DNA of 64,000 nucleotides from Mesorhizobium denitrificans. Lineage in GTDB: Bacteria; Pseudomonadota; Alphaproteobacteria; Rhizobiales; Rhizobiaceae. Below, in pieces: positions 4,315-32,675 of the stretch (its first letter is position 1; each line of letters opens with the position of its first letter). The DNA lies in assembly GCF_003403035.1 (NCBI RefSeq), contig NZ_QURN01000011.1, positions 62,001 to 126,000 on the forward strand. Direction: 5' to 3'. A program made the translations under genes and the position numbers. The notes below the pieces were generated by a model, which searched no databases, was not told the origin of the DNA, and worked only from the letters and a program-made list of their open reading frames with translations.

Positions 4315-4836
4315 CTAAGGCGCGTAGGGCTGTTCTTCAACCAATGGCAGGCCGGCTTTTTCCCAGCCATCCGAGCCCAGGGGATACCAGAGCACAGAGG
4401 TGTATCCCCATGCGACGGCGCGCTTCGCGGCGTTCCACGACATCCAGCAATTGGTCATGCAGTAAAACAGAATCGGATGCGATTTGTCCGTGCCAATCTG
4501 TGCGTCGATACCCTTTCGGAAATACGCTTCTGTCTCGGCGTTGATTTCACCATAGCCGACATTTGCAAGCCAGATGCTGCCGGGGATACCGGAGCGCGGT
4601 TTGTCGCGCCAGATGGTACCCTGCGGTAGATTGGCGGGCTTGGGCGTGCGGGGCATGACGTCAAAGAAAACAGCGGCCTTTTCGCGCCATAGTTTTTCAG
4701 CTTCGGCGGTGGTGACGACCCGCGCGCCTTTAAGCGTTGCAGGAACCGGCGCGCGGTATTCGTCCATGCGGTAGTCGGAAGGCTCCGCGGCGGTTTCGGC
4801 GTGGAGTGGGGTTGGGACCAGAAGCGCGAGCAGCAT
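4315..4836 (-). CDS. PQQ-dependent catabolism-associated CXXCW motif protein
   Basis: A 173-residue exported protein. The rhodanese-like domain ends with the hallmark FYCMTNCWMSW around residues 130-140, the CXXCW motif that names this family, which accompanies PQQ-dependent alcohol oxidation genes. I use the ATG at 4836. The frame is open upstream to 5073, but that stretch is a RIME-like repeat, not protein. The resulting signal sequence (MLLALLVPTPLHA) is short. It is the last gene of the xoxF-xoxG-xoxJ series, separated from xoxJ by the repeat. The role is unproven; the two Cys may serve in redox or maturation of the quinoprotein system. Confidence 0.8.
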   Translation of the reverse strand: MLLALLVPTPLHAETAAEPSDYRMDEYRAPVPATLKGARVVTTAEAEKLWREKAAVFFDVMPRTPKPANLPQGTIWRDKPRSGIPGSIWLANVGYGEINAETEAYFRKGIDAQIGTDKSHPILFYCMTNCWMSWNAAKRAVAWGYTSVLWYPLGSDGWEKAGLPLVEEQPYAP

Positions 4837-4866
4837 GAAAATTCTACAAAGTAAGCGCGCTGCTGA

Positions 4867-5019
4867 CCCCTCATCCGCCTGTCGGCACCTTCTCCCGCAA
4901 GGTGAGAAGGTGGATCGTTGAGACGTCGAATTAAATCGCAGACGCTGCAGAATTTGCGATGCGTTGACACTGCTGCCTTCTCTCCTTGCGGGAGAAGGTG
5001 CTGGCAGGCGGATGAGGGG
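4867..5019. repeat. RIME-like intergenic element: two 44-nt inverted arms
   Basis: Arms at 4867-4910 and 4976-5019 are inverted copies of one another with few mismatches; each begins or ends with CCCCTCATCCGCCTG-type sequence and contains its own palindrome (CCTTCTCCCGCAAGG). The 65-bp centre is unrelated to the arms. The arrangement and the CCCCTCATCCG...GAGAAGG consensus match Rhizobium-specific intergenic mosaic elements (RIMEs). It lies between xoxJ and the CXXCW gene and would be transcribed with them. Confidence 0.75.
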
Positions 5020-5044
5020 CATCTTCCCCATGACAGCGCCCGCG

Positions 5045-5896
5045 CTATTCCGTGATGGGCCGGTTCTGCTCATCGATAAGCGGCACGCCGTAATCGAGAA
5101 GGATCTTGTTTATCGCTGGCTGGTTTTCACGGATCACCGTGTTCAGCGTGCGCTTCCATTCCTGATCGGAAGGGCGAACGCCCATGGTGATGCGATAGAT
5201 CATGCGTGAGCCGGTTGTCTCTTTGGTAAGCGGAACAATAGCGAGGTCGGCCTTCATCTGCTTGGCGAAATAGCCGCCCATCGGGCCCCATACAACCGCG
5301 GCGTCGATCTCGCCGGATTCGATGTCCTTGATCATGAGTTCGGCAGGCGAATGGGTGAAGCGCGTGTCGCGCATCAAGTCATAGATCTTTGCCTTCTTCA
5401 TGAGGTTCGCCTTGGCCATGTTCGAGGCGGGCGGCGTGCTTTGCACTACCCCGACGCGCTTGTCCGCGAGCTTGGGGTCTTCGATGGTTTCGACGCCTTC
5501 CAGCGGACCTCCCTTCTTATACATCAGGACGTAAGGCGCACGCAGATAGGCATTGGTGTTCTGCACCAGCTCGTCACCCTGCGCGTAACCCATGATGATA
5601 TCGCAGCGATTGGCGCGCAGCGTATTGCGCACGAAGCCCATGACCATCGGGAACCATGTGTAGCTGATCGACTTGCGGCCGGTCTTTTCGGCCACGAGTT
5701 GGGCAAGCTTGTTTTCGTAACCTTCGCCCTTTTCGTCGGTGAAGGGCAGATTTGCCGGGTCCGCGCATACGCGCAGCACATCGGGATCCACCAGTTCGCC
5801 CGCCGCGCCAAGGCCGGCGGTTTGTGCGTAGACAGACCCAGGCAGGATCGCCAAGGCCAGTGTCAGGCTGATTATCTGCTTGCGCATGGTGCGCAT
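5045..5896 (-). CDS. xoxJ: XoxJ-like quinoprotein dehydrogenase-associated periplasmic binding protein
   Basis: A 283-residue protein with signal peptide (IISLTLALAILPGSVYA) and a solute-binding-protein fold opening with LRVCADPANLPFTDEKGEGYE, characteristic of the MxaJ/XoxJ family. I start at ATG 5896, directly after the xoxG stop; a second ATG at 5887 is possible. The upstream open frame to 6052 is the shadow of xoxG. XoxJ proteins are thought to assist activation or maturation of XoxF in the periplasm. Gene order xoxF-xoxG-xoxJ is the standard one, which supports the call. Confidence 0.9.
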   Translation of the reverse strand: MRTMRKQIISLTLALAILPGSVYAQTAGLGAAGELVDPDVLRVCADPANLPFTDEKGEGYENKLAQLVAEKTGRKSISYTWFPMVMGFVRNTLRANRCDIIMGYAQGDELVQNTNAYLRAPYVLMYKKGGPLEGVETIEDPKLADKRVGVVQSTPPASNMAKANLMKKAKIYDLMRDTRFTHSPAELMIKDIESGEIDAAVVWGPMGGYFAKQMKADLAIVPLTKETTGSRMIYRITMGVRPSDQEWKRTLNTVIRENQPAINKILLDYGVPLIDEQNRPITE

Positions 5897-5897
5897 A

Positions 5898-6425
5898 TCA
5901 TCCGCCCATGCAGGATTTTTCCTGCTCTTTTGCGGCCTGCGACTTGTCTTCCTTCTTCGGCGGACGACCGCGTGGGGCAGCACCCACGGCGCGCGCGCGA
6001 AGATAAATATAGAGATCGTCCATGTAGCAATAGACGTTCTTGTTGTCGCCAAAGGCGGGCATCACGTTTTCCTTGCCGCCGCCGACATTCTTGCGACCTT
6101 CGGCAACGATGGACAGGAACGTGCCGTAGTCCATGGTCTTGAGTGAATCGACAAGTGCGGGAGCGTAGCTGGAGCCTACGCCATCGGGGCCGTGACAAAC
6201 GTGGCAATCGGAATGGTAGCGGCGATAGCCGCTGAACGTGTACCAGTCGACCGTGCCGTCAGGCTGGATATTGAAAGTAGGGTTGCCGTCCGCGTCGTAA
6301 TATTTGCCGTCTTCATCACGAACGGCCTTCGCTTTCTCGATGCTGTCCTGCGCAAAAGTGATCTGCGTGGGAGCAAAGACTGCGCCGGACAATGTGAGCA
6401 GGAGAAGCGCTTTACCGAATTTCAT
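5898..6425 (-). CDS. xoxG: Cytochrome c XoxG, electron acceptor of methanol dehydrogenase
   Basis: A 175-residue secreted cytochrome c with signal peptide ending ITFAQ near residue 26. The heme site is CHVCH around residues 74-78, and NVMPAFGDN supplies the axial Met. The C-terminus is Lys-rich (PPKKEDKSQAAKEQEKS), which could serve docking. XoxG takes electrons from the reduced PQQ of XoxF. It sits 158 bp downstream of xoxF, with two strong hairpins in between, and one base before the xoxJ start. Confidence 0.93.
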   Translation of the reverse strand: MKFGKALLLLTLSGAVFAPTQITFAQDSIEKAKAVRDEDGKYYDADGNPTFNIQPDGTVDWYTFSGYRRYHSDCHVCHGPDGVGSSYAPALVDSLKTMDYGTFLSIVAEGRKNVGGGKENVMPAFGDNKNVYCYMDDLYIYLRARAVGAAPRGRPPKKEDKSQAAKEQEKSCMGG

Positions 6426-6583: not shown

Positions 6584-8487
6584 TCAGTCTGGGAGGCCGA
6601 AGACGGTAAGCTGGCCACCGAGCGCGGTGTACTGCGCAAGACCGGCATAACCGCCGACCGCACCTAGACCTGCGGTCGAAACTGACGCTTCTGCATTGGC
6701 GTCTGGCGCCTTGTCACCGGCAACAGCAGTCTGCCATGCGGCAGCGTTTTCCGGAGCAAGCAGACCACCTGCCAGACCGATGCCGGCCCAGCCACCAACG
6801 CCTGACAGCACGCCGATATACTGCTTGCCGCCATGCTCATAGGTGTTGACGTTGCCGATAATGCCCGACGGCGTCTTGAACTTGTAGAGTTCCTTGCCGT
6901 TGTTATCGACTGCCTTGAGATAGCCTTCCAGGGTTCCGTAGAACACTATGTCGCCAGCCGTCGAGAGAGCGCCGGACCATACCGAGAATTGCTCCGGTAC
7001 TGACCAGACGATTTCACCCTTAGAAGCATCCCAGGCAATGAAATTGCCCATGCCGCCATGGCTGTTCGGTGCAGGATACATCGACACGGTTGCGCCCACA
7101 TAAGGCTGGCCGGCCGTGTAGCTTACCCGATATGGCTCATAGTCCATGCAGACGTGGTTCGTCGGAATGTAGAAGAGGCCAGTTTTCGGCGAGTAGGACG
7201 AAGGCTGTTGGTCCTTCGTGCCGAGCGCGGCGGGGCAGATGCCCGTCGTGTTCACGTCTTCACCGTTGAACTGCGTCGAGTATTTGTCGACCACTTGCGG
7301 ACGACCATACTGATCGCTGTTCTTGTCCATAACGACTTCCGTCGCCCAGTTGACTGCAGGGTCATACTTCTTGGCAACAAGCAGTTCGCCGGTATCGCGA
7401 TCAAGCGTGTAGGCAAAACCGTTACGGTCCGGGTGGACCAGAACGTTATGCTTCGCGCCGTTGACCTCCATGCCGTCGACGAGCATCATTTCGTTGACGC
7501 CATCGTAGTCCCATTCATCATGTGGGGTCATCTGGTAGACCCACTTGGCAACGCCCGTATCCACATCGCGCGCGAAAATGGTCATTGACCAACGGTTATC
7601 TCCGGGACGCTGTACCGGGTTCCAGGTTGACGGGTTACCGGAGCCGTAGAAAACAAGATTTGACTTCGGATCATAGGAATACCAGCCCCAGGTTGAGCCG
7701 CCGCCAGTTTTCCATTGCTCGCCTTCCCAGGTCGAGATGCCGGAATCCTTGCCGACAGGCTTGCCGAGCTGTGTGGTCTTTTCAGGATCGAGCAGCGTGT
7801 CTGCATCCGGTCCCATCGAGTATCCGCGCCAGACCTGCTTGCCATCCTTGAGACTGTAGGCAGCAACCCAGCCGCGAACGCCAAACTCGCCGCCGGAAAT
7901 GCGACGATGACCTTGTCCTTCACGATGATTGGCGCGTGGGTCGAGGATTCGCCCTTGCCGCCGTCTGTCTGATCGCCATTCTTGACCGACCAAACGACCT
8001 TGCCAGTCTTGGCGTCGAGCGCCGTAAGCATCGTGTCGGCCTGGTTCAGAATGATCTTGCCGTCGCCATATGCAACACCACGGTTCACCGTGTCGCAGCA
8101 CATGATTGGAATGACGTTCGGGTCCTGCTTCGGCTCATACTTCCACAGAATCTTGCCGTCATTGTTCAGATCGAGCGCGTAGACGATGTTCGGAAATGGC
8201 GTGTGCACATACATCACGTCGCCAATGACCAACGGGCCGCCTTCATGACCGCGCAGAACGCCGGTCGAGAAGGTCCATTTGACCTGCAGGTTCTTCACAT
8301 TGTCTTTATTGATCTGATCAAGCTTGGAGTAGCGAGTATTCGCGTAATCGCCCGTAGGCATGGCCCAGTTCTTGGGGTCTGCCGAAAGTTTTTCCAGTTC
8401 CTCATTTGCCCACGCTCCAACGGCCGATGCGCATACGAGCAATGCGGTGGCTGATAGGAGATGGGTGGCATTTTTAAGTACACGCAT
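6584..8487 (-). pseudogene. xoxF: xoxF, lanthanide-dependent PQQ methanol dehydrogenase, interrupted by a one-base deletion
   Basis: Two overlapping reading frames together give a full-length XoxF of about 634 residues. The first part (8487 to about 7903) has the signal peptide ending AVGAWA and the vicinal disulfide of PQQ dehydrogenases (MCCDTVNRG, codons at 8095-8100). The second part (to 6584) has WGWYSYDP and [11 protein letters not shown]. In the last motif the extra Asp (codons 7502-7510 read D-Y-D) is the lanthanide ligand that separates XoxF from calcium-type MxaF, which has Ala there. The frame breaks near 7898-7905: VIVGISGGEF is expected but one G is missing, giving VIVAFPAAS. All motifs on both sides are intact, so this is either a very recent mutation or a sequencing error. 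The C-terminus carries an Ala-rich insertion of about 25 residues before the conserved GLGAVGGY end. Confidence 0.9.
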
Positions 8488-9139: not shown

Positions 9140-9496
9140 ATGTTTTCGAAAATGAGTGCCTCGATTGCGGTGCTTGGTGCGGCGCTGGGTTTTTGTCTCA
9201 GCCCGGTTTCCGCACACGCGGCAGCGGATTACCCGACCACCGCAGTTGCCGATTATGTCTACGCCTGCATGAAGTCGAATGGCGAGACGCGCGAGGCGCT
9301 TGAGCGGTGTTCGTGCTCAATCGACGTGGTGGCGTCCATCGTTCCCTATGACGATTATGTTGCTGCTGAGACGTTTCGGCGCATGGCGCTGACGACAGGT
9401 GAGGCCGCCGGGCTGTTCAGGGAAAGCCCGCCAGCCAAGGCTGCAGGCGCGGAATTGAAGCGCGCGCAAGCAGAAGCGGAGATTCGCTGCTTCTAG
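9140..9496 (+). CDS. Small secreted Cys-containing protein, conserved in quinoprotein loci
   Basis: A 118-residue protein with a signal peptide (residues about 1-28, ending SAHAAA) and a mature part with four Cys: YACMKSNG, ERCSCSID and the C-terminal IRCF. A GGAG Shine-Dalgarno lies about 9 nt upstream of the ATG. It is divergent from xoxF and convergent with the SoxYZ-like gene (4-nt overlap of the ends). I recognise no catalytic domain. Two possible disulfides and the location suggest a periplasmic accessory of alcohol oxidation; that is inference only. Confidence 0.7.
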   Translation: MFSKMSASIAVLGAALGFCLSPVSAHAAADYPTTAVADYVYACMKSNGETREALERCSCSIDVVASIVPYDDYVAAETFRRMALTTGEAAGLFRESPPAKAAGAELKRAQAEAEIRCF

Positions 9497-10359
9497 TTTG
9501 AAACAGGCGTGGTCAGCGGCCACTCGCTTTCGAACTGCTTGCCTTCCGTATCGCTGGCGATGACCTTGAGCGGTTCCTTGCCCTGCGCGGTAAAATCAAA
9601 ACGGAAATTCGGATCTTCGGAAATCGAGATTCCACCCTCCATCGCGAGGATCAGGCGGTCGCCCTGCGATACGCTGAGCTTGTCCACGAAATGCGCCGGG
9701 ATGAAATATTGAGTCAGCGGGTCGCGCTGCAGCCCGGAATTGTTCGGATGGCGGATCATGAGTTGCAATTCTTCAGCCTTGCTCATGTTTTCCGTACTCT
9801 CGAACTGACGAAGCTTCATTTGCCCCATCGCTGCGAGCGCTTCCTTCGAGTTTTTTGCGGCAGGCGCAGAGCAGCCACCCGATGCCTTGATAAAGGTCTG
9901 GGACATGTGGAGCTTGCCATCGGCTGTTTCGGCGATGGCGCGGATGTATGAATAGTCGTTCACACGCACGCGGGTCGAAATATGCGTGATGCCGGCGTCC
10001 TTGCCGATATCGAATTTCGCGGCAACCGGCGCGGGGTTCACGTCGATAATCATTGTGACGGTCTTGACGCCTTCGGGTGCCTTGGCTGGATCGAGAAAGA
10101 TATCCACCGGCACGATTGCAGCATCCTGCGCGCGCTTCGGCGCTTCGACACGCACCACGCCATCATCCAGAACGATAGCGCGATCTCCGAAAACATCGTC
10201 CTTAAGAGACAGCCAAACTTGCTCCGATGAGGCTGGTGTTTGCTGCGCGGATGCGTATGCCGTTAGTACGACGAGCACGCCAAGCGCGAACACCAAAAGA
10301 GTCAAATAATGGGCGACGGGCGAAACGGCTTGGCGTTTGACCTTAACTTTCGCTGGCAT
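9493..10359 (-). CDS. Quinoprotein dehydrogenase-associated SoxYZ-like carrier protein
   Basis: A 288-residue protein starting MPAKVKVKRQAV at 10359 with GGAGG upstream; earlier in-frame starts give no signal peptide. A hydrophobic segment at residues about 17-37 exports or anchors it. The N-terminal SoxY-like part contains SGGCSAPA, comparable to the GGC sulfur-binding tail motif of SoxY, and the C-terminal part is SoxZ-like (PAHFVDKLSVSQGDRLILAMEGGISISEDP). Such SoxYZ fusions occur next to PQQ dehydrogenases, not sulfur oxidation genes, and are proposed to act in a relay with the zinc hydrolase encoded just upstream. It is the last gene of a six-gene minus-strand operon. Confidence 0.85.
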   Translation of the reverse strand: MPAKVKVKRQAVSPVAHYLTLLVFALGVLVVLTAYASAQQTPASSEQVWLSLKDDVFGDRAIVLDDGVVRVEAPKRAQDAAIVPVDIFLDPAKAPEGVKTVTMIIDVNPAPVAAKFDIGKDAGITHISTRVRVNDYSYIRAIAETADGKLHMSQTFIKASGGCSAPAAKNSKEALAAMGQMKLRQFESTENMSKAEELQLMIRHPNNSGLQRDPLTQYFIPAHFVDKLSVSQGDRLILAMEGGISISEDPNFRFDFTAQGKEPLKVIASDTEGKQFESEWPLTTPVSN

Positions 10360-10464
10360 TGATGCCTCCACCGGAATGAACTGGTGGTGCCCTTGGCTGG
10401 TTGGGATGATAGCCGCCGCGAACGATGATGGCAATCTTCGTAAATCATAACCCCTCATCCGCCG

Positions 10465-11400
10465 CTATTCCCACTCTAGTTCGGCATAGGCAGTTGTGGC
10501 GTTGCGTTCGTTATATTCGTCGAACAATTTCCATTTTGCGCGCTCGCTTTGACCGGCGGTGGTGACGGCTTCCGCGAGCGGAACGCCAGCCTTGATTGCA
10601 GCGCGGAGATCGCTCGCTAACGTTTCGAAATAGCGGCGCTCAGGCGCGATTGCATCCGGCCATGCCGACGGCGAGGGACCATGACCCGGCACAACGCCAC
10701 TCGCCGCGATGGCAGCGAGTTCATCGAGCTGGCGCATCCAGCCAAGAAGAGAGCCGTCCATTGTTGGAAGATGTCCGAGAAACACGAGGTCGCCCGCGAA
10801 AAATGTGCCGCTGGTGCGGTCCATGACGGTCAGATCATTATCCGTGTGGGCGGGCTGCCATGCGCGCAGGTCAAGCTTGCGGTCGCCAAGGTCCAGCTCC
10901 GTGCGGTCTGCAACCAGCACTGTCGGCGGGATGATTTCGACTCCGCGCATGAGTTCCTCGCCAAGCTGGCGGCGGAAGCTCTGCAGATAGAACGCGCCGC
11001 GCGCTTCCAGCGCTGCTGGCAGGTTGGTGTGACCGACGATTTGCGCGCCGGTTTCCTTGAACGCGGCATTTCCGAAAATGTGGTCGGGATGCATATGCGT
11101 GTTGATCAGATAGCGGAGCGGTTTGTCCGTGATTTCGCGCACGGCGCGCAGGAGTTCCACGCCTTCCAGATAGCTGCCGCCGCTGTCGATCAATGCCGCT
11201 GATTCCGTGCCGACGATGAGGCCGACATTGCAGATGGCGCCCTGATTGGCTGGCTCCATCATCTCTTCCGCGCCAGTGAAAGCATAGACGCCATCGGCAA
11301 GCGCGCTCAGCTTAGGCTCGACGGCGGCGCGCGCGGGGGTGTGAATGAGAGCGGAGGATGCGGCCCAACCAAGAATTTGGCGGCGTGTGAGTGTACTCAT
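10465..11400 (-). CDS. Quinoprotein relay system zinc metallohydrolase (MBL fold), Tat-type signal
   Basis: A 311-residue metallo-beta-lactamase-fold protein. The metal site THMHPDH (His102, His104, Asp106, His107) is complete, and later GDLVFLGHLPT and VPGHGPSPS supply further ligands. The N-terminus TLTRRQILGWAASSA looks like a twin-arginine signal. The family accompanies the SoxYZ-like carrier and PQQ dehydrogenases; it may hydrolyse a thioester-bound product, but the substrate is not established. It lies 5 nt after the ABC ATPase stop, so it is co-transcribed with a transporter. Confidence 0.85.
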   Translation of the reverse strand: MSTLTRRQILGWAASSALIHTPARAAVEPKLSALADGVYAFTGAEEMMEPANQGAICNVGLIVGTESAALIDSGGSYLEGVELLRAVREITDKPLRYLINTHMHPDHIFGNAAFKETGAQIVGHTNLPAALEARGAFYLQSFRRQLGEELMRGVEIIPPTVLVADRTELDLGDRKLDLRAWQPAHTDNDLTVMDRTSGTFFAGDLVFLGHLPTMDGSLLGWMRQLDELAAIAASGVVPGHGPSPSAWPDAIAPERRYFETLASDLRAAIKAGVPLAEAVTTAGQSERAKWKLFDEYNERNATTAYAELEWE

Positions 11401-11405
11401 CGCTG

Positions 11406-12149
11406 TCAGCCTGTGTGCGGAAATTTTTCCCTGAAGGAAAGGTGGAGATCGTTCATGACCTGGGGGTTGCGATATTCACGTGGGAGTCGCACGTCGAATA
11501 TGCCAAGCACATGCGCAGGACGCGGCGACAGGACGACAATGCGGTCCGATAGCATCAGCGCTTCATTGAGATTGTGCGTAACCATCAATGCAGTGGTCGG
11601 GCGCTCGGACCAGACGGTCAGCAAGAGGTAACGCAGACGCTGCGCGGTTTGCTCATCCAGCGAAACGAAGGGTTCGTCCAGCAGCAGGATCGAGGGCTCT
11701 ATCGCGAAGGCGCGGGCAAGAGCGGCGCGGCGGGCAAGGCCAAGTGAGAGTTCGGACGGGTAGAGCTTGCGCATGGCGGAGAGGCCGAGCGTTTCGAAAA
11801 GCGCGTCGAGCGATTTGCTGCGCATTTCGGGCGGCATGGCCAGCCTGACATTTTCCTCGACGGTGCGCCACGGCAGGAGCGTTGGTTCCTGAAAGACGGC
11901 AGCGATGCGCCCGCCATCCGGGAGTTGCACGGAGCCGGTGTAATGCTTGTCGAGGCCGAGCAGAATGCGCAGTGTCGTGGTCTTGCCGCAGCCGGAAGGG
12001 CCAAGCAGGCAGGCAAATTCGCCATGCCGCACCTCGAAGGAGAGGTCGCGCACGGCGGTGAGCGGTTCGCCGCCAGCCGGATGAAATGTCTTGTCGGCGA
12101 TTTCGACCCTAAGCGGGACGCCGGCGCCAACGGGTCGCATGTCGTTCAA
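11406..12149 (-). CDS. ABC transporter ATP-binding protein (TauB/SsuB type)
   Basis: A 247-residue ATPase with Walker [10 protein letters not shown] (about residues 51-59), Q-loop FQEPTLLPWR, a divergent signature LSLGLARRAALARA and Walker B ILLLDEPFVSLDE. The FQEPTLLPWRTV form is typical of nitrate/sulfonate/taurine-type importers. It overlaps the permease gene by 41 nt and is followed 5 nt later by the zinc hydrolase. The substrate is unknown; the context links it to the alcohol oxidation system. Confidence 0.9.
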   Translation of the reverse strand: MNDMRPVGAGVPLRVEIADKTFHPAGGEPLTAVRDLSFEVRHGEFACLLGPSGCGKTTTLRILLGLDKHYTGSVQLPDGGRIAAVFQEPTLLPWRTVEENVRLAMPPEMRSKSLDALFETLGLSAMRKLYPSELSLGLARRAALARAFAIEPSILLLDEPFVSLDEQTAQRLRYLLLTVWSERPTTALMVTHNLNEALMLSDRIVVLSPRPAHVLGIFDVRLPREYRNPQVMNDLHLSFREKFPHTG

Positions 12150-12942
12150 AGGGCTGCACCAGCATGAGTTCGATCAAGAGCATTATGGCTACGAAAGCCA
12201 GCGTGTAAGCAAGGATCGCGGCCACGTCGAATGTTTGGAAATAGAGGTAAATCTGAAAGCCGACGCCGTTTGAGCGCCCAAGCAGTTCCACAACCAGCAC
12301 GATTTTCCAGATGAGCGCTATGCCCGAGCGCGAAGCAGCGGCGATGTAAGGTTGCAGTTGCGGGAGCAGGATATGACGCAGGCGCTCCCATGCGCTGAAA
12401 CGATAGACGGTTGCCAGTTCGCCATAGCGCGGGTCGAGCGCTCGCGCGCCTTCGCGCATGGTTACGATGACGTTTGGTATCTTGTTGACCGCGACTGCGC
12501 CGATTGCCGCGAACTCATTCAGGCCGAACCAGATATAGGCGAGCACGATGATGACCAGCGCGGGGAGGTTCAGGAACAGCACCACCCACGGGCTGAAAAA
12601 ATTGTCGGCGCGCTGTCGCATGCCCAAGGTTACACCGATCACCGAGCCGACAATCATGGCCAGGATGAACGCCGCCACAACGCGCATCAACGTCATACCG
12701 AGATGATAGAAGAGTTCGCCGCTGGCGGCGTCTCGAATGAGAACATCCAGCACGGCCGCGGGAGAGGGCAAAGCACGGCTTGGCCATATGGTCGATGCAA
12801 TGGCCCAAATGGCAAGGAGCGCTGCGAGCGAGGCTGCGACAGTCACCAAGGGTAACAGGGACGGCCTTGCGCGTTTGCTGGCGGGGGCTGGTTTCGATGC
12901 GGCTGCGGGTCGATTGTCGATACCTATGCCCGGCGCGGTCAT
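12109..12942 (-). CDS. ABC transporter permease (TauC/SsuC type)
   Basis: A 277-residue membrane protein. After a basic, Pro/Ala-rich N-terminus (residues 1-28) there are about six hydrophobic segments. The loop EGARALDPRYGELATVY followed by ILLPQLQPYIAAASRSG matches the EAA motif region of binding-protein-dependent permeases. Its ATG overlaps the stop of the binding-protein gene by 4 nt, and its 3' end overlaps the ATPase gene by 41 nt, showing tight coupling. Confidence 0.9.
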   Translation of the reverse strand: MTAPGIGIDNRPAAASKPAPASKRARPSLLPLVTVAASLAALLAIWAIASTIWPSRALPSPAAVLDVLIRDAASGELFYHLGMTLMRVVAAFILAMIVGSVIGVTLGMRQRADNFFSPWVVLFLNLPALVIIVLAYIWFGLNEFAAIGAVAVNKIPNVIVTMREGARALDPRYGELATVYRFSAWERLRHILLPQLQPYIAAASRSGIALIWKIVLVVELLGRSNGVGFQIYLYFQTFDVAAILAYTLAFVAIMLLIELMLVQPFERHATRWRRRPA

Positions 12943-13937
12943 TCAAACAGACCCGACCAATAGGTTCCGGGGGCCATTGTCGCTGCCTTGCCGACCAGCT
13001 TTTCGCCGCCGACAGAAGCAAGCACCTCGTACAGCTTTGCGGCGTCTGAGGCGTCGTCGACGATAGGGCGGGTCGGAATGCCTTCGCGGTAGCGATCCCG
13101 CAGAGTTTCCAGCTCCTTGCCTTCCGCGCGCATGACCGGCGCAAGGCGCTGCCATTCTTCATTCGAGGTGCCGAGCAGCTTTTTCGTGTCGGACGATGCC
13201 GCGATGAAGCCGCGCAGAGCTGCATCGTTTTCCTTCGCCCATTTGTCGTGAACCACATAGCCAAGTGAGGCCACGGGGCCAGTCGCGCCGAGAGCGAGCG
13301 CGGCGTCGTTTGCGCTGGCAAGGCGGCGGAAGCCATTGGCTTCGAGGCGCGCGCAGAAATGCCAGAAGTTGAGAACAGCGTCGAGTTCGCCCTGCATGGC
13401 TTTTTCGGACATGAGAGGCGGCGCGCCGTAGGCAATTTCCGCTTCGGTCGCGAGGTCGACGCCATGATCGCGCTTGGCGAGCGCCTGCAAGAGCAGCCAG
13501 CTTTTATCCAGCGGGCCGCCCGCGACGCCGATTTTCTTGCCTTTCAGATCGGGGATCGCCTTGATGGGCGAATCCTGCTTGACCATGATTGCGCCAACAG
13601 CGGTGGAATAGGGAATGAGCGCGAGGTCTTCGCCTTCGGAACGCAAGCGCGACACCCAAAGCCAATCAGAAACGATCAGGTCAATCTCGCGGGCCAGAAT
13701 GGCGACATTGGTAGCGTCTTCGCCGGCGAAATAAACGACCTCGACATCGACATTGTGGGCCTTGTCGAAGGCGTTGTGCTTCAGACTGTCCAGCTCCCAG
13801 TTGACCGTGCCGAACTTCAAGACGCCGACACGAACCTTCGGATTGCCTTGCGCGCGCAGTGCAGGCGAAAAGGCCAGAGTTGTTGCACCCACAAGTGCGC
13901 CGAGCGCCGTGCGACGGGAAACGGGAACGGTAATCAT
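12939..13937 (-). CDS. ABC transporter substrate-binding protein (TauA/SsuA type)
   Basis: A 332-residue periplasmic binding protein. I start at ATG 13937 (MITVPVSRRTALGALVG), where SRRTALG is compatible with Tat export; the frame is open to 13967 but without a better start. The mature part opens KVRVGVLKFGTVNWELDSL, similar to aromatic/sulfonate/nitrate binding proteins. The ligand is unknown. Its start overlaps the stop of the 67-residue gene upstream as ATGA. Genes of this type in PQQ loci may take up an acid made by periplasmic oxidation. Confidence 0.85.
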   Translation of the reverse strand: MITVPVSRRTALGALVGATTLAFSPALRAQGNPKVRVGVLKFGTVNWELDSLKHNAFDKAHNVDVEVVYFAGEDATNVAILAREIDLIVSDWLWVSRLRSEGEDLALIPYSTAVGAIMVKQDSPIKAIPDLKGKKIGVAGGPLDKSWLLLQALAKRDHGVDLATEAEIAYGAPPLMSEKAMQGELDAVLNFWHFCARLEANGFRRLASANDAALALGATGPVASLGYVVHDKWAKENDAALRGFIAASSDTKKLLGTSNEEWQRLAPVMRAEGKELETLRDRYREGIPTRPIVDDASDAAKLYEVLASVGGEKLVGKAATMAPGTYWSGLFE

Positions 13938-14137
13938 ATGCTTCTGCCTCGGTCCGGGAATGCGCACTTCCAGCGAACGACCTTAACGCTTGGATGCAAT
14001 TCGGACCATTTCGCAATTTCCATGGGAGCAAGCCACATGCAATGCATGAGAGAGCCGCGACTTTCGAAATAGAGATGTTCGTCACGGCAGCTTGTCGGAT
14101 TTGCCGACAGGCAGACTGTGAGGATCAGATCGACCAT
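13934..14137 (-). CDS. Small conserved Cys-containing protein at head of quinoprotein operon
   Basis: A 67-residue protein starting MVDLILTVCLSANPT at 14137. It has Cys at residues 9, 17, 33 and 58 in the pattern LTVCL...SCRDEHL...MHCMW...RWKCAFPD, which I recognise as a small family recurring beside alcohol-oxidation genes. There is no clear signal peptide. The stop overlaps the next start as ATGA, strong evidence that it is translated. An upstream extension to 14221 is open but lacks support. Function unknown. Confidence 0.65.
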   Translation of the reverse strand: MVDLILTVCLSANPTSCRDEHLYFESRGSLMHCMWLAPMEIAKWSELHPSVKVVRWKCAFPDRGRSI

Positions 14138-21195: not shown

Positions 21196-22446
21196 ATGCG
21201 TCCTATCAAGAGCACGGTGCCAATTACTCTTGCGGTTTTCATGGGTCTTTTTGCGGCGTGCGTCAACGTCGAGTTAGCGGTTGCGCAGGATCAGCCCAAG
21301 CCGCAAGCTGCAAAGCCAGAGAAAAAGATCACTGAAATCAACGTAGGTTATCTGCGCGCTTATGCGCCGCAGCTAGCGCTTTCCGTGCTGGACGTTCCGC
21401 CGCGCGATGAAGGCGTTGCGGGCGCGAAAGTCGCGATTACGGACAACAACACGACCGGCGCGTTCACCGGGCAGAAGTTCAATCTGGAAGTGGTCCAGGT
21501 TAAGCCCGACGAGGATGTCACGGCGGCGTTCGATGCCATGATGGAAAAGAGCGACCGCTATATTCTGACCGACCTTTCGGCAAAACAGCTTCTCTCGATT
21601 GCTGACAAGGCGCGCGACAAGGGCGTGCTGTTGTTCAATGTGGGCAATACGGACGACAGCCTGCGCGAAGAAGACTGCCGGATAAATGTGTTCCACACCG
21701 CGCCGACCCGCTCGATGCTGGCGGATGGGCTCGCGCAATATCTGATCTGGAAGCAGTGGCCGAAATGGGTGCTGATTTACGGCTCGCATGAGCGCGACAA
21801 GCTGTTCGCAGATGCGCTGCGCCGGGCGGCAGAGCGTTTCGGCGGGCAGATCGTTGGTGAAAAGGAATTCAAGGATACGGGCACGGCCAAGCAGACAGAT
21901 TCAGGCGTTGTGCAAATTCAGAAGCAGATGCCGGTGTTTACGCAGGATCTGCCGGACCATGACGTGGTGCTGGTGGCCGACGAAAGCGAAGTGTTCGGCA
22001 GCTATGTGCCGTTCCGCACATGGATTCCAAGGCCGGTCGCGGGAACTGCCGGCATGATACCGTCGATCTGGCATCCTGCGAGCGAACAGTGGGGCGGTGC
22101 GCAAATCCAGAATCGGTTTGAGAAAGCGTCTGGCCGCCGGATGCTTTCCAAAGACATGGCCGCATGGACAGCGGTGCGCGTGGTTGGCGAGGCGGCAACG
22201 CGCACACCCGATGCCGATCCCGCGAAGATGGAAGAGTTCATCAGGTCCGACAAATTTTCGGTGGCGGCGTTTCGCGGACAAAAGGCCACGTTTCGGAGCT
22301 GGAACCTGCAGATGCGCGAGCCGATTTTCCTCGGTGACGGGCGCGGCGTGATTACGACTTCCCCGCAGGAGGGCTTCCTGCATCAGGTTTCGGAACTCGA
22401 CACGCTGGGCGTCGACAAGCCGGAGACGAAGTGCGTGCTGAAGTAA
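21196..22446 (+). CDS. PQQ-system ABC transporter periplasmic binding protein, LutA-like
   Basis: A 416-residue type I periplasmic binding protein. The signal region is residues about 1-30 (ending VELAVAQ), followed by a Lys/Gln/Pro linker and INVGYLRAYAPQLALSVLD. The family is the ABC-binding protein found with PQQ-dependent dehydrogenases. The gene order of binding protein, beta-propeller, small exported protein, ATPase, permease and exported protein is that of the lanthanide utilisation (lut) cluster of Methylobacterium extorquens. I infer a role in lanthanide import for XoxF. Confidence 0.8.
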   Translation: MRPIKSTVPITLAVFMGLFAACVNVELAVAQDQPKPQAAKPEKKITEINVGYLRAYAPQLALSVLDVPPRDEGVAGAKVAITDNNTTGAFTGQKFNLEVVQVKPDEDVTAAFDAMMEKSDRYILTDLSAKQLLSIADKARDKGVLLFNVGNTDDSLREEDCRINVFHTAPTRSMLADGLAQYLIWKQWPKWVLIYGSHERDKLFADALRRAAERFGGQIVGEKEFKDTGTAKQTDSGVVQIQKQMPVFTQDLPDHDVVLVADESEVFGSYVPFRTWIPRPVAGTAGMIPSIWHPASEQWGGAQIQNRFEKASGRRMLSKDMAAWTAVRVVGEAATRTPDADPAKMEEFIRSDKFSVAAFRGQKATFRSWNLQMREPIFLGDGRGVITTSPQEGFLHQVSELDTLGVDKPETKCVLK

Positions 22447-22467
22447 AAAATGATCGGGAGGAGTTTA

Positions 22468-23445
22468 ATGAAAGCTGGGCCACTGGTTGCGGGAACCGCG
22501 TTTGCTGTCCTGATGTCGGGCAGTCCCGCCTTTGCCTACATGGCGTATGTCTCCAATGAGAAGGACAACACAGTCACCGTTGTGGACACCGATACCAAGG
22601 AGGTCGTGAAGACGATCAAAGTGGGGCAGCGGCCTCGCGGCATCACCATCTCGCATGACGGGAAGTTTGTTTATGTCTGCGCCAGCGATGACGACAACAT
22701 CGAGATCATCGATACGGTGACGAGTGAGATCGTCGGCTCGCTGCCATCCGGACCGGACCCGGAGCTTTTCGTGCTGTCGCCCGATGGCAAGACACTCTAC
22801 GTGGCCAATGAAGACGACAATCTGGTCACGGTTATAGACATTGAGAGCAAGAAGGTGCTGGCGGAGGTGCCTGTTGGTGTCGAGCCGGAAGGCATGGGCG
22901 TGAGCCATGACGGCAAGACGATGGTGAACACGTCGGAAACGACGAATATGGCTCACTTCATCGACACGGGGACCAACGAAATCACGGACAATGTGCTGGT
23001 GGATTCACGGCCGCGCTTTGCGGAATTCAAACCGGACGATTCGGAAGTCTGGGTGAGTGCTGAAATCGGCGGCACAGTTTCGGTGATCGACAATGCGACG
23101 CGCCAGGTGAAGCACAAGATCACGTTCGAGATTCCGGGGCTGAGGGCGGAATCGATCCAGCCTGTCGGCATACGAATCACCGATGATGGCAAGAAAGCCT
23201 ATGTCGCGCTGGGGCCTGCCAATCGGGTCGCGGTAGTGAACGCGGAAACCTATGAAGTGGAGAAATATGTGCTGGTCGGCCAGCGTGTTTGGCAGCTCGC
23301 TTTCACGCCTGACCAGAAAACGATCATCAGCACAAACGGCATTTCCAACGACATTACCTTTATCGACGTGGCGACTGATGAGCCGGTGCAATCCGTGACC
23401 GTTGGCGCGCTGCCTTGGGGTGTCGTGGTTTCGCCGACGAAATAG
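22468..23445 (+). CDS. PQQ-dependent catabolism-associated YVTN beta-propeller protein (lut-type)
   Basis: A 325-residue exported protein. I use the ATG at 22468 (MKAGPLVAGTAFAVLM), which has GGGAGGAG 6-13 nt upstream. The mature part is a seven-bladed YVTN propeller: blades repeat VSNEKDNTVTVVD, CASDDDNIEIID, VANEDDNLVTVID and so on, each with an acidic turn before the strand. These Asp/Glu/Asn-rich loops could hold metal ions. Position two in the lut-type operon supports a periplasmic role in lanthanide handling. Confidence 0.85.
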   Translation: MKAGPLVAGTAFAVLMSGSPAFAYMAYVSNEKDNTVTVVDTDTKEVVKTIKVGQRPRGITISHDGKFVYVCASDDDNIEIIDTVTSEIVGSLPSGPDPELFVLSPDGKTLYVANEDDNLVTVIDIESKKVLAEVPVGVEPEGMGVSHDGKTMVNTSETTNMAHFIDTGTNEITDNVLVDSRPRFAEFKPDDSEVWVSAEIGGTVSVIDNATRQVKHKITFEIPGLRAESIQPVGIRITDDGKKAYVALGPANRVAVVNAETYEVEKYVLVGQRVWQLAFTPDQKTIISTNGISNDITFIDVATDEPVQSVTVGALPWGVVVSPTK

Positions 23446-23479
23446 GGAACCAAGCTTATGCCAAGGGAGAGAGAGCATA

Positions 23480-23983
23480 ATGTCCAACTATCGTAAGATT
23501 GCGTTTGCCGTTCTGCTGGGGTCGGCAATGTCATTGTCTCACGCTTTTGCGCAGGACAACGACGGCGACGATGATGATGCAGCCGCGCCTGCTGCGACTG
23601 AAACGGCAGCGCCCGCGGATGCTGAAAAGCCGACGCGTGCCAGCAAGGATGTGCCCGAACTGGTTCTGGGGACGAAGGACGATCAGTTCGCCGTGAACCA
23701 AAAGGATTTCACGCTTATTTCCGGGCAGGGATACCGCTGGAAGATCACTGCGCAGGGCGGTCTGGAGTACAAGTTCGCGACGGACCTTTTCCGCAATGTC
23801 TGGAACAATCAGATCGTTATCAGCGATCTGGAAGTACACATGAATGGCGCGCCAGCATGGCTGGAATTCGATGCGGACGGCACGATTCAGGTGCAGTTCA
23901 CGACCGTGCGGCCGGGCATCTACACATGGTCGGTTCCCGACCTTGCGGACAAGGGCATGAAGGGCACGATCACGATCAAGTAG
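23480..23983 (+). CDS. Small exported protein with acidic N-terminus and cupredoxin-like domain (lut-type)
   Basis: A 167-residue protein. The true start is ATG 23480 (MSNYRKIAFAVLLGSAM) after GGGAGAGAG; the upstream frame is the shadow of the propeller gene. After the signal peptide (ending SHAFAQ) comes DNDGDDDD and an Ala/Pro/Glu-rich linker to about residue 60. The rest resembles a cupredoxin: the ending PGIYTWSVPDLADKGMKGT matches the copper loop region but lacks the Cys and His ligands. There is no Cys at all. It may bind lanthanide with the acidic segment; that is inference. Confidence 0.7.
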   Translation: MSNYRKIAFAVLLGSAMSLSHAFAQDNDGDDDDAAAPAATETAAPADAEKPTRASKDVPELVLGTKDDQFAVNQKDFTLISGQGYRWKITAQGGLEYKFATDLFRNVWNNQIVISDLEVHMNGAPAWLEFDADGTIQVQFTTVRPGIYTWSVPDLADKGMKGTITIK

Positions 23984-24051
23984 TTGCCGAAAGTAGCACT
24001 GCGTGCGGCGGTCTTTAAGCATAGGATCGCCGCGTTGCGGAGGAGAATGGT

Positions 24052-24840
24052 GTGCAGCATATGATGCCCGCCGGTGGTGCGCAGGATGTCGCGGCGCTCG
24101 ACGTTGCCGCCGTCAGCCATTCCTATGGCAAGAAGCGCGCGCTGGATAATGTGTCATTCACGATCAAGCCGGGCAGCTTCACCGTGCTGCTTGGCCTGAA
24201 CGGTGCGGGCAAGACGACGCTGTTTTCGCTCATCAGCCATCTTTACGACACGCGGCAAGGCGCAATCCGCATTTTCGGACACGATATTGTACGCACCCCC
24301 GGCGAGGCACTGCGACGGCTGGGGATCGTGTTTCAGGCGCGCACGCTCGACCTCGATCTGACCGTGCAGCAGAACCTTTCCTATCACGCCGCTTTGCATG
24401 GCATATCGGGCGCTGAGGCGACGAAGCGCATCGCCGCGCGGCTGAACGAAGTGGAGATGGGCGGACGGCTGCACGACAAGGCGCACAGCCTTTCCGGCGG
24501 GCAGATGCGGCGCGTGGAAATTGCCCGCGCGCTGTTGCACGAGCCGCCGCTTTTGCTGCTGGACGAGGCGACCGTGGGTCTGGATGTGCAGTCGCGCGCT
24601 GGCATTCTCGCCAATATTCGCAAGCTGGTCGCGACGCGCGGCATCAGCGTTTTCTGGGCAACGCATTTGATCGATGAGGTGCAGCCAAGCGATGACGTGG
24701 TTGTGCTCTCACAGGGGCGATTGGTGGCGAATGGGCGGATTTCCGATGTTGTGACGCAGACCGGCGCAAGGGACATAGGCGAGGCATTTCGCACGTTGAG
24801 CCGGGCAGGTGAAATCGTGCCGACGGGTCATGGGCAATGA
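24052..24840 (+). CDS. lutE: PQQ-system ABC transporter ATP-binding protein, LutE-like
   Basis: A 262-residue ATPase: Walker A GLNGAGKTTLF (about residues 46-56), signature LSGGQMRRVEIARALL, Walker B LLLLDEATVGLDV and the H-loop WATHL. The GTG start at 24052 has GGAGGAG 6 nt upstream. It belongs to the ABC-2-type ATPases of PQQ loci. It overlaps the permease gene as ATGA. The symbol is assigned from cluster order, not from a computed alignment. Confidence 0.82.
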   Translation: MQHMMPAGGAQDVAALDVAAVSHSYGKKRALDNVSFTIKPGSFTVLLGLNGAGKTTLFSLISHLYDTRQGAIRIFGHDIVRTPGEALRRLGIVFQARTLDLDLTVQQNLSYHAALHGISGAEATKRIAARLNEVEMGGRLHDKAHSLSGGQMRRVEIARALLHEPPLLLLDEATVGLDVQSRAGILANIRKLVATRGISVFWATHLIDEVQPSDDVVVLSQGRLVANGRISDVVTQTGARDIGEAFRTLSRAGEIVPTGHGQ

Positions 24841-25691
24841 GCGCGGTCGAGACAACGCCGGTCAAGGCGCAGCCCTTTACCGTTGGGCAGTATCTGGTCT
24901 GCCTCAAGGGCATTCTGGTGCGCGAGGGTATGCGGTTTTTGAACCAGCGGGAGCGGTTCATTTCCTCGCTGGTGCGACCTTTGCTTTGGCTCTTCATTTT
25001 CGCAGCGGGGTTCCGGCAGGTGCTCGGTGTTTCGATCATTCCGCCATACAAAACCTATGTGCTGTATGAGGTTTACATCACACCCGGCCTGTGCGGCATG
25101 ATCCTGCTTTTCAGCGGAATGCAGTCGTCGCTCTCGATGGTGTATGACCGCGAGATGGGAAATATGCGGACGCTGTTGGTCAGCCCATTTCCGCGCTGGT
25201 TTCTGTTGATGTCGAAACTGTTGGCCGGCGTGACCGTATCGGTTGCGCAGGTCTATGCGTTTCTGGTCATAGCCTATTTCTGGGGGGTTAAGCCGCCGCC
25301 CATTGGCTATGCGCTGGTTCTGCCCGCACTGTTTTTATCAGGCATGATGTTATGTTCGCTCGGTCTGCTTCTGTCGTCGGTCATCAACAAGCTGGAGAAT
25401 TTCGCTGGGATCATGAACTTCGTGATTTTCCCGATGTATTTTGCTTCTCCAGCGCTCTACCCGCTGTGGCGGATTCAGGAATCCAGCCCGCTTTTATACA
25501 AAATCTGCGTGGCGAACCCTTTCACCTATGCGGTCGAGCTGATCCGGTTCGCATTTTATGGGCAGATCGAGTGGACATCGCTTGCGGTGGTGGTCGCGTG
25601 TACGGCGATTTTCCTACTCGGCGCGATCATCGCTTATGACCCTTCGCGCGGCCTTATGGTTCGCAAGCAGGACACGGGAGGAAACGGATGA
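24837..25691 (+). CDS. lutF: PQQ-system ABC-2 type permease, LutF-like
   Basis: A 284-residue integral membrane protein of the ABC-2 family with about six hydrophobic segments (for example LLWLFIFAAGFRQVL, GLCGMILLFSGMQSSLSM and LSGMMLCSLGLLLSS). The conserved cytoplasmic region DREMGNMRTLLVSPFPRWF is the family signature. Both ends overlap neighbours by ATGA, so ATPase, permease and the next protein are coupled. Symbol from cluster order. Confidence 0.82.
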   Translation: MSAVETTPVKAQPFTVGQYLVCLKGILVREGMRFLNQRERFISSLVRPLLWLFIFAAGFRQVLGVSIIPPYKTYVLYEVYITPGLCGMILLFSGMQSSLSMVYDREMGNMRTLLVSPFPRWFLLMSKLLAGVTVSVAQVYAFLVIAYFWGVKPPPIGYALVLPALFLSGMMLCSLGLLLSSVINKLENFAGIMNFVIFPMYFASPALYPLWRIQESSPLLYKICVANPFTYAVELIRFAFYGQIEWTSLAVVVACTAIFLLGAIIAYDPSRGLMVRKQDTGGNG

Positions 25692-28199: not shown

Positions 28200-28709
28200 C
28201 TAAGAAGCACCGAAAGGATGCTTGACGGAATCGCGCAGCTTGGTCGCTTCGGCAGCAGTTGGCGTGCCTGCGATTGCACGGGCAAGAGCTTCCTTGGTTG
28301 CGCGATAGTTGTAGTCCTGAATCTTTGCGTCGTCCGATGCTTCCCAGTGAATGAAAACGCCGACGCAGATGAACAGGTCGTCCGCTTCATTTGCGGGGAT
28401 CGTGCCGTCTGCCACGCTATCCTGGACGGCCTTGGCAACAGCGAACTGCGCCGGGCCGAACATCTGCACAGCCTGCTTTGCACCCTTGATCGTGACCTTG
28501 TTGAACATAACCGTGTTCGGTTTGCAGGGCAGATTGGGTGCGATCACTGCGAGAAGGCTCGTGAAGCCGTCTTTATTGTTCGTAAGTGCGTTGCAGAATG
28601 CAGCTTCGACCGGACTGCCGCGTGGGCCAATCAGAAGGTCGATGTGAGCAACTTCGTTGCCGTCGCCGACAAGCGATTCACCCACCATTACTTTGTTGAT
28701 TTTTGCCAT
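28200..28709 (-). CDS. fae: Formaldehyde-activating enzyme
   Basis: A 169-residue enzyme that condenses formaldehyde with H4MPT to methylene-H4[23 protein letters not shown] and [15 protein letters not shown] are hallmarks; His22 is the conserved catalytic residue. [20 protein letters not shown] is also invariant-like. The ATG at 28709 has GGAGG 9 nt upstream; an in-frame TTG six bases earlier is too close to it. It is transcribed alone, between a 170-bp upstream gap and a terminator. The frame continues for 27 codons after the TAG stop in protein-like sequence (see findings). Confidence 0.96.
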
Positions 28710-28881
28710 TGCCAATTTCCTCCACAGATATCCTTGGAGTCCAAAGACGCCGCAACCGAGCGGGCGCTCGATGGACGACTATCCTTGTTGGCAGCGCCCG
28801 GAAACGGACCGGACCGGTTGGCTAGATAGCCGCGAAAACACTTGTGTCTCCGCTTTCAAAATTCAAGCATTAACCCCGGCA

Positions 28882-30618: not shown

Positions 30619-31560
30619 TTATCCCAGACTCGCCTCGAGCATGGCCATGTGGCGCGTGCCGGTGCGGAACGTTTCGCCAGTGTCGATGGCGGTCACAATG
30701 GCCTCGGCTGGGCTGAACAGCAGCGGGTCGATGGCGTAGAAATCACCCTTGAACGCCTTGAAGATTTCCGCGAAGGGCCTGCCGTGATCGCGCGAGGTCG
30801 CACTAGGAAGTTTCTCTGCGAGACGTCGCGCTTCGTTGGCCGGGCCCTTGACGAATAGCTGCACCAGACTGCCATAGATGATGGCGTCGTTGGTGCGCCC
30901 CATCGCCGTGAGAAAATCGGGATGCGGTGCAGGCAGCGGCGCAGAGGCCGCGCCATCAATGATATTATCAAGCGGGAATTTCAGATCATTGGCCTTGTGC
31001 AGCGCCACTTCCAGTACCCGTGCGACGATCTGCGCGGTTCCGGCCAGACTTTGCGTCGGCGCGTATATGAAGGCGAGATGATCCGGCGCGAGGCCGGTGG
31101 CGTCTGCGACCTTACGCACGACAGCTTCAACAGGGGGCTTGGAGGTTTCGAGGATGAGTACGCCGTTTTCGGCCTGCTCGCGATAGCCAAGGGTTTCAAA
31201 CAGGGGCTCGACACGGGCGAGCGCGCGGGCGGGGCCGGAACCCATAGCGAAATAATCGCCACTGGAAAGACTCCAGCCCGCATATTGCGCGGCGAGGCAG
31301 GCGAGAACCGGCTGCGACGAGCGAACCTCAAGCGTCAAAGGCCATAGCGGGGTGGAGCGGTCCATGCCGGTGGTGATGGTGCCGAGGCCACCCATAGCTG
31401 CGCGTGCCATTTGCAGGCCGGCTTCGATGCTGCCGATACATTTTGCTCCGGCGTCGATCAGGGTTTCACCCAGCGGACCCTTTGAAGAGGTGATGCGCAG
31501 GCTCGCGGCGTCACGCTGCATTTGTTCAACGATTTGCGTTGCGCTCGCATTTAGCGACAT
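30619..31560 (-). CDS. mch: Methenyl-H4MPT cyclohydrolase
   Basis: A 313-residue enzyme that hydrolyses methenyl-H4MPT to formyl-H4MPT. SLNASATQIVEQMQ at the start and KCIGSIEAGLQMARAAMGGLG, SSQPVLACLAAQYAGWSL and YFAMGSGPARAL are characteristic. Full length for the family. It lies between the two ATP-grasp genes, overlapping the upstream one by 10 nt. Confidence 0.95.
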   Translation of the reverse strand: MSLNASATQIVEQMQRDAASLRITSSKGPLGETLIDAGAKCIGSIEAGLQMARAAMGGLGTITTGMDRSTPLWPLTLEVRSSQPVLACLAAQYAGWSLSSGDYFAMGSGPARALARVEPLFETLGYREQAENGVLILETSKPPVEAVVRKVADATGLAPDHLAFIYAPTQSLAGTAQIVARVLEVALHKANDLKFPLDNIIDGAASAPLPAPHPDFLTAMGRTNDAIIYGSLVQLFVKGPANEARRLAEKLPSATSRDHGRPFAEIFKAFKGDFYAIDPLLFSPAEAIVTAIDTGETFRTGTRHMAMLEASLG

Positions 31561-32675
31561 AGCCGTTCCCTCATAGTGCGCGCATTGCGGTTCAGGTTAA
31601 GGCGGGCGGCGGCGGCTGTTTCGCCAGCGCCGAAAATGCTGCAAATGGGATCGCCTGCCGCAAGCTTGCTGCCTGCCGTTTGGTGGTCGGCTGTCCAGAC
31701 GGGCCATTCGAAAGCGGGCAGGCTGATAAGCTCGCGGTCTGCATAGGCAATCATGGACGCGGCGGAGCCGGATTGGCGAGGGAGCGCAAACGGCTGCCCA
31801 CGACAGGCGTGCAAATGCGCTTCAAAAAGTGGAGCGACGGGGTCGTCGAAGATGTCGAGCGTTGCGCCGGGACGCGGATTGATTTCCAGCAGGATGTAGC
31901 CGTCGCGCGTGCGGATGAAATCGGCGCTGCACAGGCCGATGAGGCCGGTTCGTGCAGTGAGATCATCAAGCCATTTGCCGAACAGTGCGGCGGCGCGGCG
32001 GGAAAAGCGCGTGAGGCGAACGGCGCCGCCGTAGCGATAAGGGGCGCCCGGCGCAGGCGATTGCCACTGACGGCTGAAGCCGACGACATGCGCGCGCTGA
32101 CCGTCGCCGATAAAGAGTGCGGAAATCGGAGTGCCGATAAGACGCTGCTGATAGTAGCTGCCGCGTTTCCCGAAATTCGCAGCAGACTGCACATGTGCGC
32201 CACCTGCGGCCCCCGCGATCTTCGCCAGCCAGTTTTCAGGATCGGGCGGGGTGGTGCGGCGCATTGCGGGATGCGGGATGCCAAGCGCAGCGCAATCGGC
32301 AGCAAGCGTTTCAGGGTGCTTGATGCGCTGGATGGTGGCTCCGCCGTTACCGGCAAGCGGAAATTGCGTTGCCAAGCGGTCGACGAGATCGGGTTGACGT
32401 TCGAAACCGGAACCGAGAACAAGGCCTTCCAGCGGTTCGCCATTGGCGAGTTGCTGGAGCGTATCGACAAGGCCGGCGGGTTCGATGCCGTGATGCAATG
32501 CGCCCGGCAAGCGGACCGTGCGCGCGCAGGCGGCGACCGTGTCCAGATCTTCAAAGAAGTCTGCCGCTAACACGCAATAGCCAGCCCGCCGGGCGGCCTG
32601 AGCCAGGGCGCGAGATGAAACCGCTGCAATGAGAACGGTCTTATTTGGCGATTTCGCGAGCAAACGAGAACGCAT
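31551..32675 (-). CDS. ATP-grasp domain protein of the H4MPT gene set
   Basis: A 374-residue protein. I start at ATG 32675 (MRSRLLAKSPNKTVLIAAV), which overlaps the mtdB 3' end by 35 nt; earlier codons have no support. The N-terminal domain (VLIAAVSSRALAQAARRAG) is a preATP-grasp fold, and GLCSADFIRTRDGYILLEINPRPGATLDIF near residue 260 is the metal-binding end of the ATP-grasp fold. This corresponds to the conserved ATP-grasp orf found next to mch in methylotrophs. Its substrate is unknown, probably a cofactor precursor. Confidence 0.82.
   Translation of the reverse strand: MRSRLLAKSPNKTVLIAAVSSRALAQAARRAGYCVLAADFFEDLDTVAACARTVRLPGALHHGIEPAGLVDTLQQLANGEPLEGLVLGSGFERQPDLVDRLATQFPLAGNGGATIQRIKHPETLAADCAALGIPHPAMRRTTPPDPENWLAKIAGAAGGAHVQSAANFGKRGSYYQQRLIGTPISALFIGDGQRAHVVGFSRQWQSPAPGAPYRYGGAVRLTRFSRRAAALFGKWLDDLTARTGLIGLCSADFIRTRDGYILLEINPRPGATLDIFDDPVAPLFEAHLHACRGQPFALPRQSGSAASMIAYADRELISLPAFEWPVWTADHQTAGSKLAAGDPICSIFGAGETAAAARLNLNRNARTMRERLCR

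Follow-up and report, generated by a model that had tools for sequence, protein, structure and literature searches.

In the draft genome of Mesorhizobium denitrificans, the only PQQ-type methanol dehydrogenase gene that was found, a xoxF gene of the lanthanide type, has probably lost its function through a very recent one-base deletion that is real in the sequenced strain. The gene was analysed in a stretch of 64,000 nucleotides (contig NZ_QURN01000011.1, positions 62,001 to 126,000 of assembly GCF_003403035.1), hereafter called the window, where it covers positions 6584-8487 of the minus strand and is spread across two overlapping frames that join at 7901-7903 (Table 1).

Table 1 Features of the xoxF region and of the associated methylotrophy genes (window positions)
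Feature	Position	Strand	Remarks
PQQ-linked CXXCW protein	4315..5073	-	TIGR03865, open, above cut-off
xoxJ-like periplasmic protein	5045..6052	-	TIGR03871, open, above cut-off
xoxG-like cytochrome c	5898..6425	-	TIGR03874, open, above cut-off
xoxF 3' fragment	6584..7900	-	438 residues with metal-site motif and C-terminus; mechanical ORF reaches 8101
xoxF 5' fragment	7582..8487	-	301 aa ORF: first about 195 residues native, with N-terminal signal region; remaining about 105 out of frame
Frameshift site	7901..7903	-	1 base fewer than in relatives, immediately before GISGGEFG motif
Quinoprotein-associated SoxYZ-like carrier	9493..10458	-	TIGR04557, open, above cut-off
Quinoprotein relay zinc metallohydrolase	10465..11400	-	TIGR04559, open, above cut-off
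ABC transporter genes (ATPase, permease, binding protein)	11406..13967	-	Best models nitrate/sulfonate/taurine-type and similar, all below cut-offs
lut-like PQQ-alcohol-dehydrogenase-associated ABC genes	21196..25691	+	TIGR03863, TIGR03866, TIGR03864, TIGR03861; four, open, above cut-offs
fae, formaldehyde-activating enzyme	28200..28715	-	Open, above cut-off
mch, methenyl-H4MPT cyclohydrolase	30619..31560	-	Open, above cut-off
Methylene-H4MPT dehydrogenase	32641..33537	-	PF09176 N-terminal domain, open
fhcB, fhcA, fhcD, fhcC (formyltransferase/hydrolase complex)	35078..39445	+	Open; fhcA, fhcD, fhcC above cut-offs

A xoxF gene coded in two frames

No single frame of full length (about 600 aa) is present and, because its coding sequence lies in two frames, the locus was filed as a disrupted xoxF gene and not as a working XoxF. 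The 5' ORF follows XoxF through KDKVIV and then continues with AFPAAS and the remainder of the foreign tail. A reading made earlier from the sequence only had reported exactly this departure (VIVAFPAAS in place of the XoxF sequence) and attributed it to a one-base deletion at 7895-7906; both points hold, as the missing base was placed inside that interval. The ORF 6584-8101, usable from 7900, encodes [10 protein letters not shown]... through the C-terminus, and its first in-frame ATG lies 28 codons past the break, at 7816. Family model TIGR03075 is divided correspondingly, with model positions 4-171 matched in the 5' piece (228 bits) and 172-530 in the 3' piece (496 bits, cut-off 480), and when the whole genome was scanned the two meet end to end at C3:69900, C3 being the contig that holds the window (window 7900). 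In each of the ten relatives whose DNA was compared here (two of them in the reverse orientation), the glycine codon at this site is complete. That xoxF lacks one base relative to the compared relatives is hence confirmed at the level of the DNA sequence. Within the window, Rfam gave no match at gathering scores.

The genome searched comprises 4.38 Mb in 45 contigs and is 99.75% complete. A second xoxF or mxaF elsewhere, which the sequence-only reading had proposed to look for, was not found: genome-wide, neither PF13360 nor the XoxF C half (E up to 1) nor TIGR03075 revealed another gene of the xoxF family, although a copy could still lie in a gap of the draft. Three relatives (G002, G034 and G036) each possess an intact xoxF together with weaker related genes.

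Identity as a lanthanide-type XoxF

For both halves, the best match among solved structures is the lanthanide-dependent XoxF 6OC5. Chance resemblance can be excluded, because amino-acid identity with the intact xoxF of G002, a genome of the same genus, reaches 98% and 94% in the two halves. Compared with XoxF of known structure (PDB 6OC5/6OC6, 6DAM), they jointly align over nearly the entire enzyme and share the motifs WDYDG, GGEFG and [10 protein letters not shown] as well as an adjacent pair of cysteines; the [20 protein letters not shown] motifs are present. Unlike in those enzymes, a complete product is not predicted here, the gene being coded in two frames. The detailed roles assigned to these motifs, except for that of the extra aspartate, are presumed, as is the choice of which Asp of the WDYDG/WDFDG motif is the additional, lanthanide-marking one. 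WDYDG aligns with WDFDG of 6OC5, and the additional active-site aspartate thus present is described as a mark of lanthanide dependence in the available part of PMC12628762. Genes for xoxG and xoxJ follow directly downstream, and the nearest named XoxF relatives belong to Rhizobiaceae and Mesorhizobium. Towards the C-terminus, about 24 residues (window 6677-6748, about residues 385-408 of the C half) do not align to 6OC5; counted by eye, the matches span 1305-1311 bases in 21 of the 80 named loci and 1227-1239 bases in the remainder.

Neighbouring methylotrophy genes

The claim that accessory, H4MPT and lut-type genes are intact beside the broken xoxF was borne out for those tested, which are open and conserved (Table 1); fhcB is open yet scores below its family cut-off. 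The ABC genes termed lut-like here are described by their models as associated with PQQ-alcohol dehydrogenases. For the xoxJ-like gene, the true start probably lies inside the tabulated ORF, whereas that of the CXXCW gene, judged from the model match, is probably near 4803, the first part of its ORF being a dispersed repeat. This palindromic repeat of 159 bases (window 4861-5019), which resembles rhizobial RIME-type elements, is located by the xoxJ-like and CXXCW genes, and positions 4850-5030 form a very strong hairpin when folded (z -11.3). With both strands counted and 40 candidates scored per genome, it has 89 matches in this genome, 93 in G002, three in G034 and none in G001 or G036.

Further markers of the pathway were sought in five chosen genomes, namely this one (G000), G001 and G002 from the same genus, and G034 and G036 as relatives with close xoxF genes. 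In all of them except G001, pqqC, fae and RuBisCO are present without internal stops, while in G001 none of these three was matched, nor was xoxF. This distribution fits a module of xoxF, pqqC, fae and RuBisCO that came or went as a whole within the genus, five genomes being few. Genes for XoxF, the H4MPT pathway and RuBisCO thus occur in one genome (window 14767-39445; G000:C6:39805-40728), and genes for ribulose-phosphate epimerase and phosphoglycolate phosphatase are situated inside the gene island. The methylamine dehydrogenase model PF06433 had zero matches in any genome, controls included, and is uninformative. Matches to TIGR03105, a name also in use for gamma-glutamylmethylamide synthetase, stayed below the cut-off in all five genomes.

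Intactness of xoxF in relatives

In each of 94 related loci, both xoxF halves lie in a single open frame without a stop. These loci (L003-L096) were drawn from a total of 109 and comprise 80 from named genomes and 14 from unnamed relatives; as the named ones were located by patterns within the C half, genes badly damaged there would be under-sampled. The remaining 15 (L097-L111), with matches of no more than 31-40% and probably encoding other PQQ enzymes, were excluded. Together with the intact gene of G002 (94-98% aa), a disabling change is thus accompanied by intact homologues in close relatives, as in a recent pseudogene.

A wider survey was carried out with TIGR03075 against 297 genomes of the same family (E up to 1e-60, at most four candidates scored per genome). 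This model also captures PQQ dehydrogenases other than XoxF, short pieces fall below the E-value limit, and some genomes had more than four candidates. Matches were obtained in 95 of the 297 genomes (128 rows), and the 126 rows outside this genome consist of 120 that are full length and open, one with an internal stop (G112) and five partial ones, which sit within about 150 bases of contig ends and cannot be judged. Within these bounds, none of the 120 full-length rows is split by a frameshift. The interrupted row, L157 (G112:C202:4001-6500), is a PQQ dehydrogenase relative with an internal TAA stop. In the plasmid collection, 158 records contain related DNA, the best place being 60-80% identical in 157 of them and 80-90% in one.

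Selection and age of the break

Relative to G002, the N half shows dS 0.81, dN 0.013 and dN/dS 0.017, and the C half dS 0.99, dN 0.036 and dN/dS 0.037; among 24 segments compared with that genome, fae alone equals the two xoxF halves in constraint. When six relatives served as outgroups, four amino-acid changes could clearly be assigned to this branch and five to the G002 branch, 22 being ambiguous. If a branch dS of 0.45 is assumed, the ceiling for the time spent as a neutrally evolving gene is about 0.6% of the branch from the four clear changes and about 4% from all 26. A second lesion was not seen in xoxF. Because the halves appear strongly constrained and this branch carries no excess of change, the break is either very young or not real, the same pair of options, recent event or assembly error, that had been offered from the sequence.

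Frameshift background of the assembly

About 178 kb was aligned to G002 (109,639 bases on contig C3 and a further 68,175 at six other places), and the xoxF shift was the one true frameshift detected on the side of this genome. A first pass over the window, run without a test of coding pattern, had given 17 frameshift rows, three of which were xoxF itself; several of the others fall where the actual gene is uninterrupted and can be aligned with G002 in one frame. Such is the case for about 23462-24054 (+), 29709-30617, 30619-31560, 33553-34521, rpe with its neighbour (15453-16010) and fae. The subsequent coding-pattern filter, which also dealt with the other rows, took ORFs of at least 100 aa, its counts of coding-like ORFs including antisense shadow ORFs and hence not being gene counts, and left six candidates outside xoxF. 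Five were rejected since they span gene boundaries or run antisense to real genes, four being judged by translation and one, upstream of fae, by coordinates, with fae itself aligning in one frame. The sixth candidate (C3 ORF 21045-21446) would place the shift in G002. As, in addition, no N occurs in the 167,479 bases read of the contig and no homopolymer of three or more lies at 7901-7903, a generally indel-prone assembly is unlikely.

Discussion

Taken as sequenced, the gene would be translated into a truncated product in which about 195 native residues, roughly a third of the protein, precede a foreign tail and which presumably lacks a complete active site. Any second product would start no earlier than the first ATG past the break and would not include the N-terminal signal region. 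Since the first product would have no complete active site and the second no signal region, no active periplasmic enzyme is expected, and methanol oxidation through XoxF would be lost in the strain. The translation stop near 7582 may also reduce expression of xoxG and xoxJ by polarity. Such a loss would be masked wherever the strain grows on alternative carbon sources, as it might in laboratory culture.

The same data would arise if the gene were intact in the organism and the consensus had dropped one base, and a sequencing or assembly error of this kind is a substantial possibility, if short of an even chance. It would account for the lack of relaxed selection in either half, for a frame that is open in all 94 related loci, and for the apparent breakage of the pathway's entry enzyme, of which no other copy was found, while pqqC, fae, RuBisCO and xoxGJ are present. 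Against it speak the position of the site outside any homopolymer of three or more, the absence of any other true frameshift on this side in the aligned DNA and the contig bases free of N. These arguments have their limits, as the missing decay is equally what an error would give and a low error rate could likewise account for one lone indel in 178 kb. With modest confidence, a real deletion in the sequenced strain is nevertheless preferred here.

Two further explanations carry far less weight. Both frames are open across about 550 bases (7582-8134), so that one recoding event could join them, and a programmed or phase-variable frameshift would permit some full-length XoxF. The first frame, however, holds no slippery heptamer of the form X XXY YYZ, the frame shifts at no homopolymer of three or more, and the split arrangement is absent from the 94 related loci and from the full-length survey rows, which makes such recoding very improbable. 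That the lineage abandoned methanol oxidation long ago and carries an old pseudogene could draw on G001, where the trait is missing within the same genus. This idea is close to untenable in view of the small dead time allowed by the branch (at most about 4% or 0.6%, depending on the changes counted and with the branch dS assumed above), the single lesion and a constraint matched only by fae. Should the preferred deletion be both real and natural, the strain may have been caught at the first step out of methylotrophy, with lut-like, PQQ, H4MPT and Calvin-cycle modules intact and perhaps kept for other uses, such as formaldehyde from demethylation; this scenario is regarded as rather improbable.

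Broken xoxF genes have been described before. Methylorubrum suomiense DSM 14458 carries a xoxF pseudogene with xoxG and xoxJ alongside, and a disabled xoxF with both partners retained is thus common to the two organisms, as far as the available text of that study goes (PMC8561711). In contrast, the Methylorubrum copy is stated there to encode only 63 aa (PMC8561711), while here two nearly complete halves are one base out of frame. For Methylobacterium aquaticum 22A, the accessible portion of PMC5784242 mentions a possibly pseudogenised xoxF2. The present gene is hence a further example of a phenomenon already reported, and the label 'striking', which the sequence-only reading had attached to a lost main methanol dehydrogenase beside intact accessory genes, goes too far given the published case (PMC8561711, as excerpted). 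A literature search on xoxF and its pseudogenes, a weak test, yielded no paper plainly on this case; in the parts seen of PMC3797975 and PMC9145241, the word 'frameshift' concerns other matters. With regard to pathway context, lanthanide-dependent growth on methanol with XoxF and the Calvin cycle is reported for Bradyrhizobium and Sinorhizobium, which employ a glutathione-linked route (PMC12628762, in the sections available). XoxF and RuBisCO genes in one genome are shared with these methanol users; different from them, the H4MPT formaldehyde pathway is present here as well and xoxF is broken as sequenced.

If the deletion is real, a metabolic model built from the many accessory genes would call this strain a methanol user despite a dead entry enzyme, and the strain would offer a natural xoxF-null background in which the accessory and lut-like genes could be studied on their own. 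If it is an error, the outcome would be a one-base correction to the genome record. Either way, the case is a warning not to infer the presence or absence of methylotrophy from a single draft sequence.
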